A stretch of DNA of 32,481 bases from positions 1 through 32,481 of the IMG/VR virus record IMGVR_UViG_3300029153_000001; one strand, written 5' to 3'. A program made the position numbers and the translations under genes. This DNA is from a virus. Shown here one piece after another: positions 4,918 through 32,481 of this stretch (positions are counted from its first letter, which is position 1; every line of letters starts with the position of its first letter). The notes beneath the pieces were generated by a model. The model saw only the letters and a list, made by a program, of their open reading frames with translations. It had not been told where the DNA came from and did not search any database.

Positions 4918-5882
4918 CGGAAGTCTCTACGACTTACAAACCGTTCGCCTTTCCTGAGTTCGTCAACCATGCAATCGACCATGAGAGCATGTTCTGGGGG
5001 GAGTGGGAAGCCTCCCTCCAGCGTGACGTAAACCAGTGGAAGGACGGAACGATTACCCCGGAGGAACGCAACCACATCACCCAGATCCTCCGTCTGTTCA
5101 CCCAGTCCGACCAGATCGTCGGTGGCTCCTACGTCGATGTCTTCCTGCCGTACTTCAAGAACAACGAGGTACGCATGGCGCTGCTCTCCATCGCCAACCG
5201 GGAGTCCACCCACATGCGGGCCTATGCGTTGCTGAACGACACGCTGGGTCTGGCTGAGAGCGAGTACCGGGCCTTCCTTGAATACGAGGAGATGGCCGAC
5301 AAAGCGGAGTTCATGCAGGACTTCCACAAGACTGGCGGTACTGACAACGCAGTGGTGATGGGCCTGAACCTCGCCCGTACCGTGATGAACGAGGGTATGT
5401 CCCTGTTCTCTGCGTTCGTCCAGTTGCTCAACTACCAGCGCCCGGAGGCTGGCTCCAAGATGCTGGGCATGTGCGAGATCGTGGAGTGGAGCGTTCGAGA
5501 CGAGACCAAGCATGTCGAGATCATGGCCGCTCTGTTCCGTCGCCACGTTGAGGAAAACCCACGGATCGTCACCGACCATTTCAAGAAGACTATCTACGAA
5601 ATGTATCGAACTGGTGTCGATCTTGAGGATAAGTTCATCGAACTGTCCTTCGCCATGGGTGGCCCCAAAGGCATCACCAAGGAGGAAGTCAAGCAATACA
5701 TCCGCTTCGTGGCTGACCGTCGACTGACCCAGCTCGGACTCAAGCCCAACTGGGGCATCGAGAAGAACCCCCTGCCGTGGGTCGATCACATCATCGGCGG
5801 CGACAACCAAAAGAACTTCTTTGAGGGTCGTGTGACCGATTACAACCACAAGGGCATGGAGGGTGACTGGGGGTGGGAATAA
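4905..5882 (+). CDS. nrdB: Class Ia ribonucleotide reductase, small subunit
   Basis: 325 residues from ATG 4905. I chose this start because GAGGAGGA (4888-4895) sits at normal distance from it, whereas the upstream in-frame ATG 4896 directly abuts the ribosome site. Di-iron ligands can be matched to E. coli NrdB: Asp69 (QSDQ), Glu100 and His103 (RESTH), Glu163 (NEGMS), and Glu200 and His203 (RDETKH). The radical tyrosine is Tyr107 (MRAY). The protein generates the stable tyrosyl radical used by NrdA. The C-terminal tail ends in aromatic and acidic residues (GDWGWE), as expected for the peptide that docks on NrdA. It is the last gene of the metabolism block and is followed by a phage promoter. 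Confidence 0.95.
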   Translation: MSRLTEVSTTYKPFAFPEFVNHAIDHESMFWGEWEASLQRDVNQWKDGTITPEERNHITQILRLFTQSDQIVGGSYVDVFLPYFKNNEVRMALLSIANRESTHMRAYALLNDTLGLAESEYRAFLEYEEMADKAEFMQDFHKTGGTDNAVVMGLNLARTVMNEGMSLFSAFVQLLNYQRPEAGSKMLGMCEIVEWSVRDETKHVEIMAALFRRHVEENPRIVTDHFKKTIYEMYRTGVDLEDKFIELSFAMGGPKGITKEEVKQYIRFVADRRLTQLGLKPNWGIEKNPLPWVDHIIGGDNQKNFFEGRVTDYNHKGMEGDWGWE

Positions 5883-25800: not shown

Positions 25801-25852
25801 AGAAAGAAAAGGATGAAACTTATAGTGTATCTATAAGAGTCCTCTCTTGGTT

Positions 25853-25984
25853 CTCTGTCAGTTGTACCTCCCTGTGTCCTCTGTCAGTTGTCCTGACACC
25901 ATCATCACCATCATCATTCCCTTCACCAGACACAAGACACCAGACCCTCTGTCAGTTGTAGCCCTTGGCTCTCTGTCAGTCGTA
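25853..25984 (+). repeat. Four copies of a CTCTGTCAGTTGTA repeat
   Basis: Copies start at 25853, 25879, 25947 and 25971, with at most one change each (last base C in copy 2, C for T in copy 4). The spacing is 26, 68 and 24 bases. They lie between the phiOR-like promoter and the CCTCAAG repeats. On the reverse strand the core reads ACTGACAG, resembling the GTGACAG core of the phage promoter. Candidate binding sites for packaging or polymerase pausing. Confidence 0.85.
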
Positions 25985-25987
25985 CAG

Positions 25988-26019
25988 CCTCAAGTCTCAC
26001 CTCAAGTCTCAACCTCAAG
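25988..26019 (+). repeat. CCTCAAG repeats, left array (SRR-like)
   Basis: Three exact CCTCAAG at 25988, 26000 and 26013, two of them followed by TCTCA. The word differs by one base from CCTAAAG, the repeat that flanks the T7 terminal repeat. Confidence 0.75.
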
Positions 26020-26273
26020 CTGCACCTCCATGGCAGGTCTCCATGTGCCCCGCACCGGGGATTGACATAGGCCGATTATTTCTGCCAAAAATATGAGGGG
26101 GTATATAACGCGCTACGTCACCCTTTATCCCCCCTCGGCCCCCCTGCCAGTTCTGCCGATTTGACCGGGTGCCGGGTGCCCACACCACAAGCCACGCCAC
26201 AAGATGCCGCTAAGTGCTTGATCTGTAAGGGTTCGCGGTGGATAGTGTATCCCATGGCTGGCCTATTGGCTGA

Positions 26274-26319
26274 TTCTGCCGGGGTTCTGGTGGTGGTTCT
26301 GCCGGGGTTCTGGTGGTGG
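26274..26319 (+). repeat. Perfect tandem duplication of 23 bases
   Basis: A 23-base unit beginning TTCTGCCGGGG and ending GGTGGTGG occurs twice in direct tandem (26274-26296, 26297-26319). A strongly G/T-biased stretch with TTTTG words runs to about 26375. It lies in the part that would be the terminal repeat. Confidence 0.9.
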
Positions 26320-26398
26320 TTGGCTTTTGTTTTGGCTTTTGTGTCTTTTGTGGTGCATTCTTATTTTTTTCTCATAGACACAATATCTAGTAGTTCCA

Positions 26399-26578
26399 CC
26401 TCAAGCCAAACCACAAGATATAGTATCCCATCCCTCAAGACACAACATCTAGTATCGCCCTCAAGACACGACCACAAGATATAGTGGTGTGCTTTCCCTA
26501 TAGATGCAGCCGCAAGCCATGCCCTCAAGATTCGCCATCAAGCCCAGCTAAGTGATTGATCCTCAAGGGAATCTCAAG
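26399..26578 (+). repeat. CCTCAAG-type repeats, right array (SRL-like)
   Basis: CCTCAAG at 26399, 26433, 26459, 26523 and 26561, CCACAAG at 26411 and 26472, CCGCAAG at 26510, and looser ATCAAG/CTCAAG copies at 26537 and 26572. Several are followed by AGATATAGT or AGACACAACATCTAGT, which form a second, longer repeat layer. Two more CCACAAG lie at 26185 and 26197. In T7, about a dozen imperfect CCTAAAG repeats stand on the inner side of each terminal repeat. Confidence 0.78.
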
Positions 26579-26606
26579 AAAGTTCTGATTTTTTCGTCGA
26601 AAGGGG

Positions 26607-26636
26607 TTGACGTTGGTATCCATCCTCGCATATGAT
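26607..26636 (+). promoter_or_regulatory. Sigma70 early promoter P-E1
   Basis: TTGACG, an 18-base spacer and TATGAT. The spacer contains TATCCATCCTCG. It is the first of three tandem promoters and directs rightward early transcription by host polymerase. Confidence 0.78.
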
Positions 26637-26685
26637 TCATCCCGTCGACAGGGCAAACGCCCACACCGAAAGGGGTCGACAGGGG

Positions 26686-26714
26686 TTGACAGACTATCCA
26701 CCCTCGGATAAGAT
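26686..26714 (+). promoter_or_regulatory. Sigma70 early promoter P-E2
   Basis: TTGACA, 17 bases and TAAGAT, near-consensus. The spacer contains TATCCACCCTCGGA. The region from the spacer through the start (to ACAACCAGAT) is repeated almost exactly at P-E3. Confidence 0.88.
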
Positions 26715-26730
26715 GCACAACCAGATGACA

Positions 26731-26843
26731 CGCCGAAAGGTAGTCCCGTAGGAACACTGGAGTAGAAGGGTTCCGGGCGCAAGGTTCTACCACACTACCT
26801 TCGGCGGTCTCTCCGGGTAACTGGAAACGGTCAAAGGAGAGAC
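26731..26843 (+). ncRNA. Structured RNA in the P-E2 leader
   Basis: Starting about 10 nt after the P-E2 transcript start, CGCCGAAAGGTAGT (26731-26744) pairs with ACTACCTTCGGCG (26794-26806), 13 bp with one bulged A. It encloses a GTAGAA/TTCTAC stem. Directly after it, GTCTCTCC (26807-26814) pairs with GGAGAGAC (26836-26843), enclosing ACTG-GAAA-CGGT with a GNRA loop. There is no T-run and no ORF. Two abutting compact stems at the start of an early phage transcript recall the HK022 put antitermination RNAs, but this is inference. Confidence 0.6.
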
Positions 26844-26857
26844 GGTCGAAAAACTGG

Positions 26858-26886
26858 TTGACAAACTATCCACCCTCGGATAAGAT
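26858..26886 (+). promoter_or_regulatory. Sigma70 early promoter P-E3
   Basis: TTGACA, 17 bases and TAAGAT, with TATCCACCCTCGGA in the spacer. It is a near copy of P-E2 and the last promoter before the first early gene. Confidence 0.88.
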
Positions 26887-26899
26887 GCACAACCAGATA

Positions 26900-26945
26900 G
26901 GTCGCCAAGGTGACCAGCCCAGTAGGGCAACGCTCTTTAACAATT
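26900..26945 (+). promoter_or_regulatory. Hairpins plus boxA antitermination element
   Basis: In the P-E3 leader, GGTCGC/GTGACC (26900-26915) and GCCC/GGGC (26917-26928) form two hairpins. They are followed at 26931-26945 by CGCTCTTTAACAATT, which matches the boxA of E. coli rRNA leaders (GCTCTTTAACA) and resembles lambda nut boxA (CGCTCTTA). Hairpin-then-boxA is also the order in rrn leaders. NusB/S10 binding is the expected function. Confidence 0.75.
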
Positions 26946-26987
26946 CGGAATAACGGCTCGCATCCAAGGTCTGAGTAGATACTACAG

Positions 26988-27020
26988 GACGCATTGGGCA
27001 GATCACACTCTCAGTGCGTC
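26988..27020 (+). other. Early mRNA hairpin 1, possible RNase III site
   Basis: GACGCATTG pairs with CAGTGCGTC (one G-U) around a 15-base loop, followed by TATCCACTCTCACAAC (27027-27042) and the ribosome site of the 27064 ORF. A near copy stands before the next gene. Confidence 0.6.
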
Positions 27021-27063
27021 CGCTAGTATCCACTCTCACAACCAACCCGAAGGAGGGTAACCA

Positions 27064-27144
27064 ATGATCGCTGGAATCGTAGCTCTATGCACTGTAGGTG
27101 GCTGGGTACTGTCCCGCCCAATAGTGAAGGCACTCGGATACTGA
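27064..27144 (+). CDS. 26-residue membrane microprotein
   Basis: ATG 27064 is preceded by a near-ideal AAGGAGGG, and the ORF ends at TGA 27142-27144. The product, MIAGIVALCTVGGWVLSRPI followed by VKALGY, is one hydrophobic helix with a positive end. It is the first ORF after the three early promoters, so it should be among the first proteins made. Function is unknown. Alternatively the ribosome site could drive a leader peptide. Confidence 0.6.
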   Translation: MIAGIVALCTVGGWVLSRPIVKALGY

Positions 27145-27970: not shown

Positions 27971-28008
27971 TCCTATCCACCCTCGCAACCAATGCAGGAG
28001 GTTTATCA

Positions 28009-28033
28009 GGGGTCATTCCACCCGAGTGGCCCC
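28009..28033 (+). other. Early mRNA hairpin 3
   Basis: GGGGTCAT pairs with GTGGCCCC (two wobble pairs) around TCCACCCGA, between the 27230 gene and the 28071 gene. TATCCACCCTCGCAAC stands just before it at 27974-27989. Confidence 0.5.
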
Positions 28034-28070
28034 GAGTAAACCCACTGGTCAAACAACAGGAGAACGACAA

Positions 28071-28352
28071 ATGGCCTTGACCCGAGAAGACATCGCACAG
28101 ATGCGCCTCGCTGCTGAGATGTGCGACGACTACAGCCAATGGAAGCGTGAGATGGCCGAGGTGCGCCGTCTGGAAGCCGAACTCGACCGACTGGAAGGGA
28201 AAACTGGTGCGCCAACGCCCCAAGCCAAGCCCTACCAGCCCATCCCGAAGCGTCCGGCTCCCGGTATCCACTGCAAGTCCATCGAGGAGGCGCTGGCCGT
28301 GATGGATCGGGTCTTTGGCCTGAAGAAGGACAACAGGGAGGCCGCAGCATGA
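28071..28352 (+). CDS. Early helical hypothetical protein
   Basis: 93 residues from ATG 28071 (AACAGGAG upstream, like the neighbouring early genes). The first 45 residues form a heptad-like helix (SQWKREMAEVRRLEAELDRLEGK), likely a coiled coil for dimerisation. A Pro-rich linker (TPQAKPYQPIPKRPAP) and a short helix IEEALAVMDRVFGLKKD follow. Not recognised. The stop overlaps the next ATG, so the two are probably co-translated. Confidence 0.75.
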   Translation: MALTREDIAQMRLAAEMCDDYSQWKREMAEVRRLEAELDRLEGKTGAPTPQAKPYQPIPKRPAPGIHCKSIEEALAVMDRVFGLKKDNREAAA

Positions 28353-28792
28353 GGGTCTTCGTGTACTTCAACCTGCACCGCAAGTGCTGGTCTATCAAGG
28401 CGCTGGAAGGTGAGAACAAGGGTCGAGTGATCGGCCACGCCAAAGGCGTCTACCTGTCAGACGTTCGCCCGAAGGTCTCCGAGGCTGGTCGTCAACGTGT
28501 ACTGCGGGAGAAGCGCAAGAACGTACACGCTGGCCTGACCGGCAACCTGATGTGCGTCACTGACGACAGCAACCTGTGGAGGCGTTACCCGTACATCGGG
28601 AGCTACCACCACACCCTCGGGGCAACCCGGATTACCTACAACCCTTACCGTTGCGGTCACTTCACCCTGAAGAACGACCACACGACAGCCGTGAAGCATG
28701 TCGGTCTGGCGATCCTGCTGGACAGGGACGTTCACTGCTACCAAGTGCAAACCGAAACCATGACTGAACAGCAAGAACTGTTCGCTGCTTAA
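28349..28792 (+). CDS. Conserved phage hypothetical protein
   Basis: 147 residues. The N-terminus RVFVYFNLHRKCWSIKALEG followed by KGRVIGHAKGVYLSDVRPKVSEAGRQRVL is a pattern I recall from many phage genomes, always without a known function. Several conserved His, Cys and Tyr residues (YNPYRCGHF, DDSNLWRRYPYIG) suggest an enzyme or a metal site, unproven. The end is acidic (TMTEQQELFAA). It overlaps the 28071 gene by four bases (ATGA). Confidence 0.8.
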   Translation: MRVFVYFNLHRKCWSIKALEGENKGRVIGHAKGVYLSDVRPKVSEAGRQRVLREKRKNVHAGLTGNLMCVTDDSNLWRRYPYIGSYHHTLGATRITYNPYRCGHFTLKNDHTTAVKHVGLAILLDRDVHCYQVQTETMTEQQELFAA

Positions 28793-29846: not shown

Positions 29847-30053
29847 ATGGAGTACGCAGGACAAATGGCACTTACGCTTTATGTTCCCCCTTTGATTTTT
29901 GGCCGAAGCATGTTCATCGAGGTACTCAACAACCCGGTATCGGGTAAGTTGCTTGACTGGGAACGTGAGATGGCTGATACTGAAATCTGGGTAGCCGGGA
30001 GGCTGCACATCGTCGTCAGTAACGAACGACACTACAACTCACTTCGAGAGTAA
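29847..30053 (+). CDS. Small hypothetical protein
   Basis: 68 residues from ATG 29847. An alternative start ATG 29865 has a better AGGA four bases upstream, giving 62 residues. The sequence MALTLYVPPLIFGRSMFIEVL suggests a hydrophobic beta-type N-terminus. The remainder (LLDWEREMADTEIWVAGRLHIVVSNERHYNSL) is soluble. Not recognised. It follows a terminator, so it probably has its own promoter or is reached by antiterminated polymerase. Confidence 0.6.
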   Translation: MEYAGQMALTLYVPPLIFGRSMFIEVLNNPVSGKLLDWEREMADTEIWVAGRLHIVVSNERHYNSLRE

Positions 30054-31130: not shown

Positions 31131-31215
31131 TGGTGCCCGAGGTCGGACTCGAACCGACACAGCGTTAGCTACCGCATTTTGAGTGCGGCGTGTCTACCAA
31201 TTCCACCACTCGGGC
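31131..31215 (-). tRNA. tRNA-Leu (anticodon CAA)
   Basis: Read on the minus strand, an 85-nt class II tRNA. Acceptor GCCCGAG pairs with CTCGGGC, followed by A and an encoded CCA. The D arm is GTG/CAC with GAATTGGTAGA, and the anticodon arm CCGCA-CTCAAAA-TGCGG has anticodon CAA. The long variable arm contains AGC-TAAC-GCT, and the T arm is GTCGG-TTCGAGT-CCGAC. All stems are perfect, so it should be functional and read UUG codons. It is packed between the oxygenase stop (0 nt) and the integrase leader. Confidence 0.95.
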
Positions 31216-32312: not shown

Positions 32313-32390
32313 GCCACGCAATGAATGCGGGGGTGGGTAGTTGAAACCTTATGAATCAAGCACTTACACATGGCGATGGGCATGACATTA
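32313..32390 (+). other. Integrase to attachment-core spacer (probable arm region)
   Basis: 78 bases with no gene. This is the phage arm next to the crossover core, where arm-type integrase sites would be expected. I cannot point to a certain repeated site. Confidence 0.4.
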
Positions 32391-32447
32391 GATTCAAAAT
32401 CCGTTGGGGTAAAACCCGTGGCGGTTCGAGTCCGCCCGCCGCTACCA
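32391..32447 (+). other. Attachment core: 3' part of a tRNA-Leu(CAA) gene
   Basis: The sequence begins GATTCAAAATCC inside the anticodon arm. It continues through a variable arm (GGGG-TAAAA-CCC), a perfect T arm (GGCGG-TTCGAGT-CCGCC) and acceptor strand CGCCGCT, ending A-CCA. No matching 5' half (such as GGCGGCG) precedes it, so it is not a full gene. A 3' tRNA fragment starting at the anticodon loop directly after an integrase is the classic attachment site. If this is attR, host DNA begins after 32447 and the restored tRNA lies at attL, left of the window. Confidence 0.85.
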
Positions 32448-32481
32448 TTTATCCGGCCGCGCCCTGCGGTGTTCTGAACAA

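Follow-up and report, generated by a model that had tools for sequence, protein, structure and literature searches.

An rrn-type boxA followed by RNase III-type hairpins in the probable early leader of a LUZ100-like temperate phage

The window analyzed here, by which we mean the whole stretch of DNA under study (a virus record of 32,481 bases), carries T7-type structural genes and a T7-family terminase, after which come a region rich in repeats, the host promoters, and the early genes; these are followed by genes for a MarR-like regulator, a 2OG-Fe(II) oxygenase, and a tyrosine integrase. The nearest isolate by terminase (84% identity) was Pseudomonas phage LUZ100. This T7-like phage has temperate features, and its transcripts, including those from its promoters P1, P2, and P3, have been mapped by ONT-cappable-seq (PMC10134795). 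Between the terminase and the early promoters lies a stretch (25840-26560) rich in repeats (CTCAAG, TCTGTCAGTTGT, and ATCTAGTG motifs), which is probably the terminal-repeat region. Tandem host sigma70 promoters (Table 1) separate this stretch from the early genes, as they do in a T7-type early leader, and the last two of them represent a promoter duplication, with P-E2 and P-E3 being identical at 43 of 48 positions. One early protein (encoded at 28349-28791) matched the Pfam family Phage_L5_gp82 (E = 2e-37), a family otherwise named after mycobacteriophage L5.

Table 1. Positions of promoters, RNA structures, and other signals in the early and lysogeny regions of the window.
Feature	Start	End	Strand	Description
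P-E1	26607	26636	+	Sigma70-like promoter, TTGACG-18-TATGAT
P-E2	26686	26714	+	Sigma70-like promoter, TTGACA-17-TAAGAT; counterpart of LUZ100 P1
P-E2 leader stem I	26731	26806	+	13 bp with one bulged A (26731-26744 pairs with 26794-26806), near the transcript 5′ end
P-E2 leader stem II	26807	26843	+	8 bp (26807-26814 / 26836-26843), internal loop, 4-bp top capped by GAAA
P-E3	26858	26886	+	Sigma70-like promoter, TTGACA-17-TAAGAT; near-copy of P-E2; counterpart of LUZ100 P2
5′-proximal hairpin	26900	26915	+	6 bp, in the P-E3 transcript
boxB-like hairpin	26917	26928	+	GCCC-AGTA-GGGC, 4 bp, three bases (AAC) before boxA
boxA	26932	26945	+	rrn-type, GCTCTTTAACAATT, exact
R0.3-like hairpin	26973	27035	+	Long, RNase III-type, with 2 × 2 internal loop, at the T3/T7 R0.3 position
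Second hairpin	27151	27189	+	RNase III-type, inner stem CATTG...CAGTG, upstream of a DUF7227-like gene; weaker (3% of windows as stable)
Third hairpin	28000	28042	+	RNase III-type, inner stem GGTCATTC...GAGTGGCC
Fourth hairpin	29231	29300	+	Strong, possibly RNase III-type, at the end of one gene and before gene 29321
Terminator-like hairpin	29789	29810	+	Separates the early operon from the lysogeny operon
P3-like promoter	29953	29981	+	TTGACT-17-GATACT, for the regulator (30068), oxygenase, and integrase

The transcript from P-E2 starts with a pronounced structure. Folding of its 113-nt leader (26731-26843) yielded −47.9 kcal/mol (z = −3.8), a stability that was reached by none of 200 shuffles and by 1.4% of the 113-nt windows of the genome, and it confirmed the 13-bp bulged stem directly adjoined by an 8-bp stem that a first-pass annotation of this DNA had described. 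The GAAA loop, which that annotation had placed on the 8-bp stem, was found to cap a separate 4-bp helix above a 5 × 4 internal loop. We found no sequence homologous to the double stem in the collections searched, and LUZ100 and four relatives lack the structure in P1-P2, their counterpart of the P-E2/P-E3 spacer: the spacers of LUZ100, L004, L008, and L011 adopt a different fold, and that of L138 has a related but different sequence. The only shared stretch is a 10-base identity (AAACGGTCAA) between 26825-26834 and positions 520-529 in the P1-P2 spacer of LUZ100 (L137), the leaders being otherwise unlike.

Two adjoining stem-loops near an early promoter also occur in the put RNA of phage HK022, and together with the stable fold they would speak for a put-type RNA; the first-pass annotation had called the double stem put-like. 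Such an RNA would act directly on host RNA polymerase and suppress terminators without any protein. We compared the leader with a covariance model of 12 putL and putR sequences from HK022 and its relatives (putL and putR being annotated in HK75 and O276), which scores its own members, by construction, at 62-94 bits. On the sense strand of 26560-27070, the best score was 0.1 bits, and the opposite strand gave 6.3 bits at 26749-26806, which was not significant. The known puts share CGAACGGC, GTCGG, and CAAT in the 3′ strand of stem II, and neither these invariant core motifs nor the 5′ pseudoknot/triplex segment of the put structure (PMC9378689) was found in the P-E2 leader. The covariance score, the missing motifs, and the absence of the double stem from the relatives led us to reject an HK022-type put identity, and we regard a put-type action of this RNA on the polymerase as scarcely credible. 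The double stem is a real, lineage-specific structured leader that starts a few bases past the inferred start site, for which protection of the RNA end or service as an RNase III substrate would be ordinary options.

The leader downstream of P-E3 resembles the leader of an rRNA operon. As the first-pass annotation had recognized, it combines two hairpins (fold z = −5.2) with an rRNA-like boxA, and this boxA proved to be an exact rrn-type sequence (for comparison, the boxA of the Escherichia coli rrnB leader reads TGCTCTTTAACAATTT). Across the whole window, the only other match at up to three mismatches had three of them, where shuffled sequences give ~1. The second hairpin occupies the place of boxB just upstream of boxA: in E. 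coli rrnB, the trinucleotide CAC separates a hairpin from boxA, and the same three-base spacing occurs here. In the rrn spacer of a genome that carries T7-like prophages (G036), located after the 16S gene and two tRNAs, we likewise found a hairpin followed by ACTT and GCTCTTTAACAATTTGG (boxA and then TTGG). Unlike the boxB-boxA-boxC leader of E. coli rrn operons, the leader in the window drives protein genes instead of rRNA and has no recognized boxC, as inspection of 26946-26972 revealed no clear boxC-like stretch. A lambda nut site was rejected on the order of its elements, since the hairpin adjoins boxA upstream, whereas nut needs boxB closely downstream.

This layout recurs beyond the window. 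A hairpin of at least 4 bp ending at most 6 nt before boxA was present in 19 of 54 distinct boxA contexts, versus 7.9 expected from base shuffles. Within the LUZ100 clade, the hairpin before boxA varies in sequence while its pairing is kept (GACC/GGTC, GAGTC/GGCTC, GGCC/GGCC, and GCCC/GGGC), and it is missing in some boxA-bearing T7-like contigs (L009/L115 and L099). The position, spacing, and conservation of the boxA are in keeping with a Nus-loading site.

The first-pass annotation had held that neither leader is expected in a T7-like early region, which is wrong for boxA, because T7, T3, K11, SP6, gh-1, Stamos, and LUZ100 all have one. T7 itself carries GCTCTTTAACAATCTGG at 813, downstream of promoter A3 (750) and upstream of gene 0.3 (925), and an exact boxA is likewise found in the early regions of T3, K11, SP6 (two copies), Stamos, and LUZ100, with one mismatch in gh-1 and Luke-2. 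Every boxA-bearing phage of the set (T3, K11, SP6, Stamos, LUZ100, gh-1, and Luke-2) has a sigma70-type promoter 50-250 bases upstream of it, and in the window, too, boxA lies between the last host promoter and the early genes. When relatives were sampled by terminase, blind to boxA, and counted only if enough downstream sequence was available, a perfect boxA occurred in 6 of the 9 covered relatives with a terminase identity of at least 72% and in none of 27 more distant ones; in this sample, the reversed pattern and the antisense strand gave no match. Since it was absent from these 27 and was not found in phiKMV, HTVC019P, Pasto, PHB01, and CRP-118, boxA is not universal; several hosts of the phages without it are not gammaproteobacteria or are of unknown identity. 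With regard to the conservation of boxA and stems together, boxA is kept in most of the close relatives and the P-E2 double stem is not.

A scan of viral contigs with a 19-base extended boxA yielded 65 loci, many of them with T7-like genes. Several T5-sized contigs (104-128 kb) have the extended boxA ~50 bases after a strong sigma70-type promoter; in L091, L104, L132, and other contigs of this size, it is accompanied by a hairpin (GTTCCCAAGGGAAC). Judged by sequence, boxA is a normal, little-discussed part of T7-group early leaders and no new antitermination device. In the literature searched, whose coverage leaves out many older papers, we found no paper that links T7-group early leaders with boxA or describes a boxA function there, and no experiment with Nus factors acting on a T7-group leader. 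Instead of an exotic put-like device confined to a single phage, the finding now concerns a feature that model phages (T7, T3, K11, SP6, and LUZ100) have in common, and whether Nus factors act on T7 early transcription becomes a question that can be tested in lab strains.

Just after boxA lies the strongest structure of the region, which had previously gone unnoticed: a long hairpin (−35.6 kcal/mol in a 70-nt window) that is matched in stability by 0.06% of genome windows and that sits where the T3 annotation places R0.3. In seven leaders of the LUZ100 clade, this hairpin displayed four base pairs with double-sided changes, a covariation score that was reached by 0 of 500 shuffles, while slid controls all had zero double changes. 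The pairs were counted on trimmed arms that were aligned by hand, because a whole-leader alignment with LUZ100 misaligned the short hairpins, and the count leans toward structure for that reason. As in a T7-type early leader, an RNase III-type hairpin precedes the first early gene, identified as such by structure and covariation only.

Three further hairpins, each a short way before a gene, follow downstream. Counted from the R0.3-like hairpin, the third (28000-28042) has an inner stem identical to that of a T7 hairpin (position 5863) located where the RNase III site R1.1 lies, between gene 1 and gene 1.1, and differs from it in the loop and outer stem. The features of an RNase III signal (a long imperfect stem, an internal loop, and an R1.1-like inner stem) are thus present, and the series of four suggests that the whole early transcript may be cut into units. 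Both T7 early RNA and rRNA are substrates of RNase III (Dunn and Studier 1973, as cited in PMC4858673). In LUZ100, the R0.3-like element falls under the 100-base box of terminator T1. The T-tracts of five LUZ100 intrinsic terminators fall around residues 53-63 of their boxes, an offset by which the 3′ end at T1 would map to about 732-733, within the 5′ arm of the stem, with no U-tract; such an end fits RNase III cleavage, without proving it, and could also be a pause or a trimmed end.

Taken together, the window most likely contains the early leader of a temperate, LUZ100-like T7-like phage. It shares with LUZ100 the promoters P1 and P2, the hairpin pair, boxA, the covarying hairpin, a MarR regulator and an integrase under P3, and a tRNA-Leu; LUZ100 differs in having no P-E2 double stem, no oxygenase, and a longer P1-P2 spacer. 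With the T7/T3 early leader (A1-A2-A3 and R0.3), it has in common the tandem host promoters, the hairpins, an exact boxA, and an RNase III-type hairpin that precedes the first early gene, and it is unlike that leader in its early genes and in the long double stem that it adds between P-E2 and P-E3. For LUZ100-like temperate phages, the early leader is thereby annotated, together with its probable RNase III sites.

What we observed directly is the anatomy, its conservation, and that the R0.3-like hairpin covaries; we infer that this leader probably loads host Nus factors via boxA and that RNase III processes it afterwards. Host RNA polymerase would start at the tandem sigma70 promoters, chiefly P-E2 and P-E3, and all leader transcripts would run through the short boxB-like hairpin and boxA. 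The boxA would most likely bind host NusB-S10, upon which a Nus/SuhB complex would join the polymerase during elongation, as happens on rRNA, so that the early transcript would be protected from Rho and/or helped in its folding. RNase III would subsequently cut the hairpin at the R0.3 position and the similar hairpins before later genes, releasing separate early mRNAs, and the lysogeny genes past the terminator would be driven by their own P3-like promoter.

The effect of the bound complex could also be confined to folding and processing, with Nus/SuhB tethering the leader during formation of the RNase III hairpins, a role that has been proposed for pre-rRNA. At rRNA, the role of Nus is held to be mainly in folding, perhaps more than in antitermination (PMC5725501), RNase III acts on both kinds of RNA, and RNase III-type hairpins follow boxA in LUZ100, in T7/T3, and in many T7-like contigs. 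These hairpins are local, however, and would form unaided, and boxA also follows promoters in the T5-sized contigs, for which no RNase III layout is demonstrated; we consider a folding-only role unlikely. Strong tandem promoters would moreover yield many early copies of a boxA near-identical to that of rrn, by which the leader might act as a decoy that titrates NusB-S10 away from the rRNA operons, so that less host rRNA would be made during takeover. The single boxA in each transcript and its upstream placement suit a role in cis equally well, and we find the decoy very doubtful.

Extending the Nus-loading and RNase III reading to further phages, we tentatively propose, with rather less than even confidence, that the early transcripts of T7-group and T5-like phages are mimics of the rRNA precursor, in which boxB-boxA would recruit the rRNA transcription complex and to which the T7 group would add RNase III stems. 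If so, the phage would take over the Rho resistance and processing of rRNA for its first mRNAs, an interaction that we did not find described in the literature searched.

The first-pass annotation had further proposed that antitermination carries host polymerase past the terminator-like hairpin downstream of the early operon, so that the regulator, oxygenase, and integrase are made. The presence of this hairpin with a boxA upstream would be in keeping with such read-through. Complexes formed on rrn-type boxA, however, are known chiefly to confer resistance to Rho and not to intrinsic terminators, and the P3-like promoter lies downstream of the hairpin, so that read-through is not needed for the regulator. 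This promoter aligns with LUZ100 P3 (TAGACT-17-GATGTT), and the relative L009 has TTGACT-17-GATACT. Its conservation is not evidence of a promoter by itself, because the stretch also encodes a LUZ100 gp09-like protein, within a small conserved reading frame at 29847-30053. For LUZ100 P3, a mapped start and a GFP reporter test are available, and this promoter drives MarR and integrase as one operon, separate from P1 and P2 (PMC10134795). Read-through as the route to the lysogeny genes is thus unsupported and, in our estimate, improbable; antitermination of the early operon itself may occur.

The cassette behind the P3-like promoter displayed some further variation. In L009 (12635-13330), the oxygenase precedes the regulator, whereas in the window it follows it, and the oxygenase may hence be a mobile cargo gene of the cassette. 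Directly after the integrase, at 32378-32450, lies the 3′ part of a tRNA gene, which is probably the attachment-site core. A search of Rfam returned tRNA as the sole match at gathering scores, next to one chance miRNA match below threshold. A complete tRNA-Leu(CAA) gene is encoded on the minus strand at 31131-31215, as is likewise the case in LUZ100.
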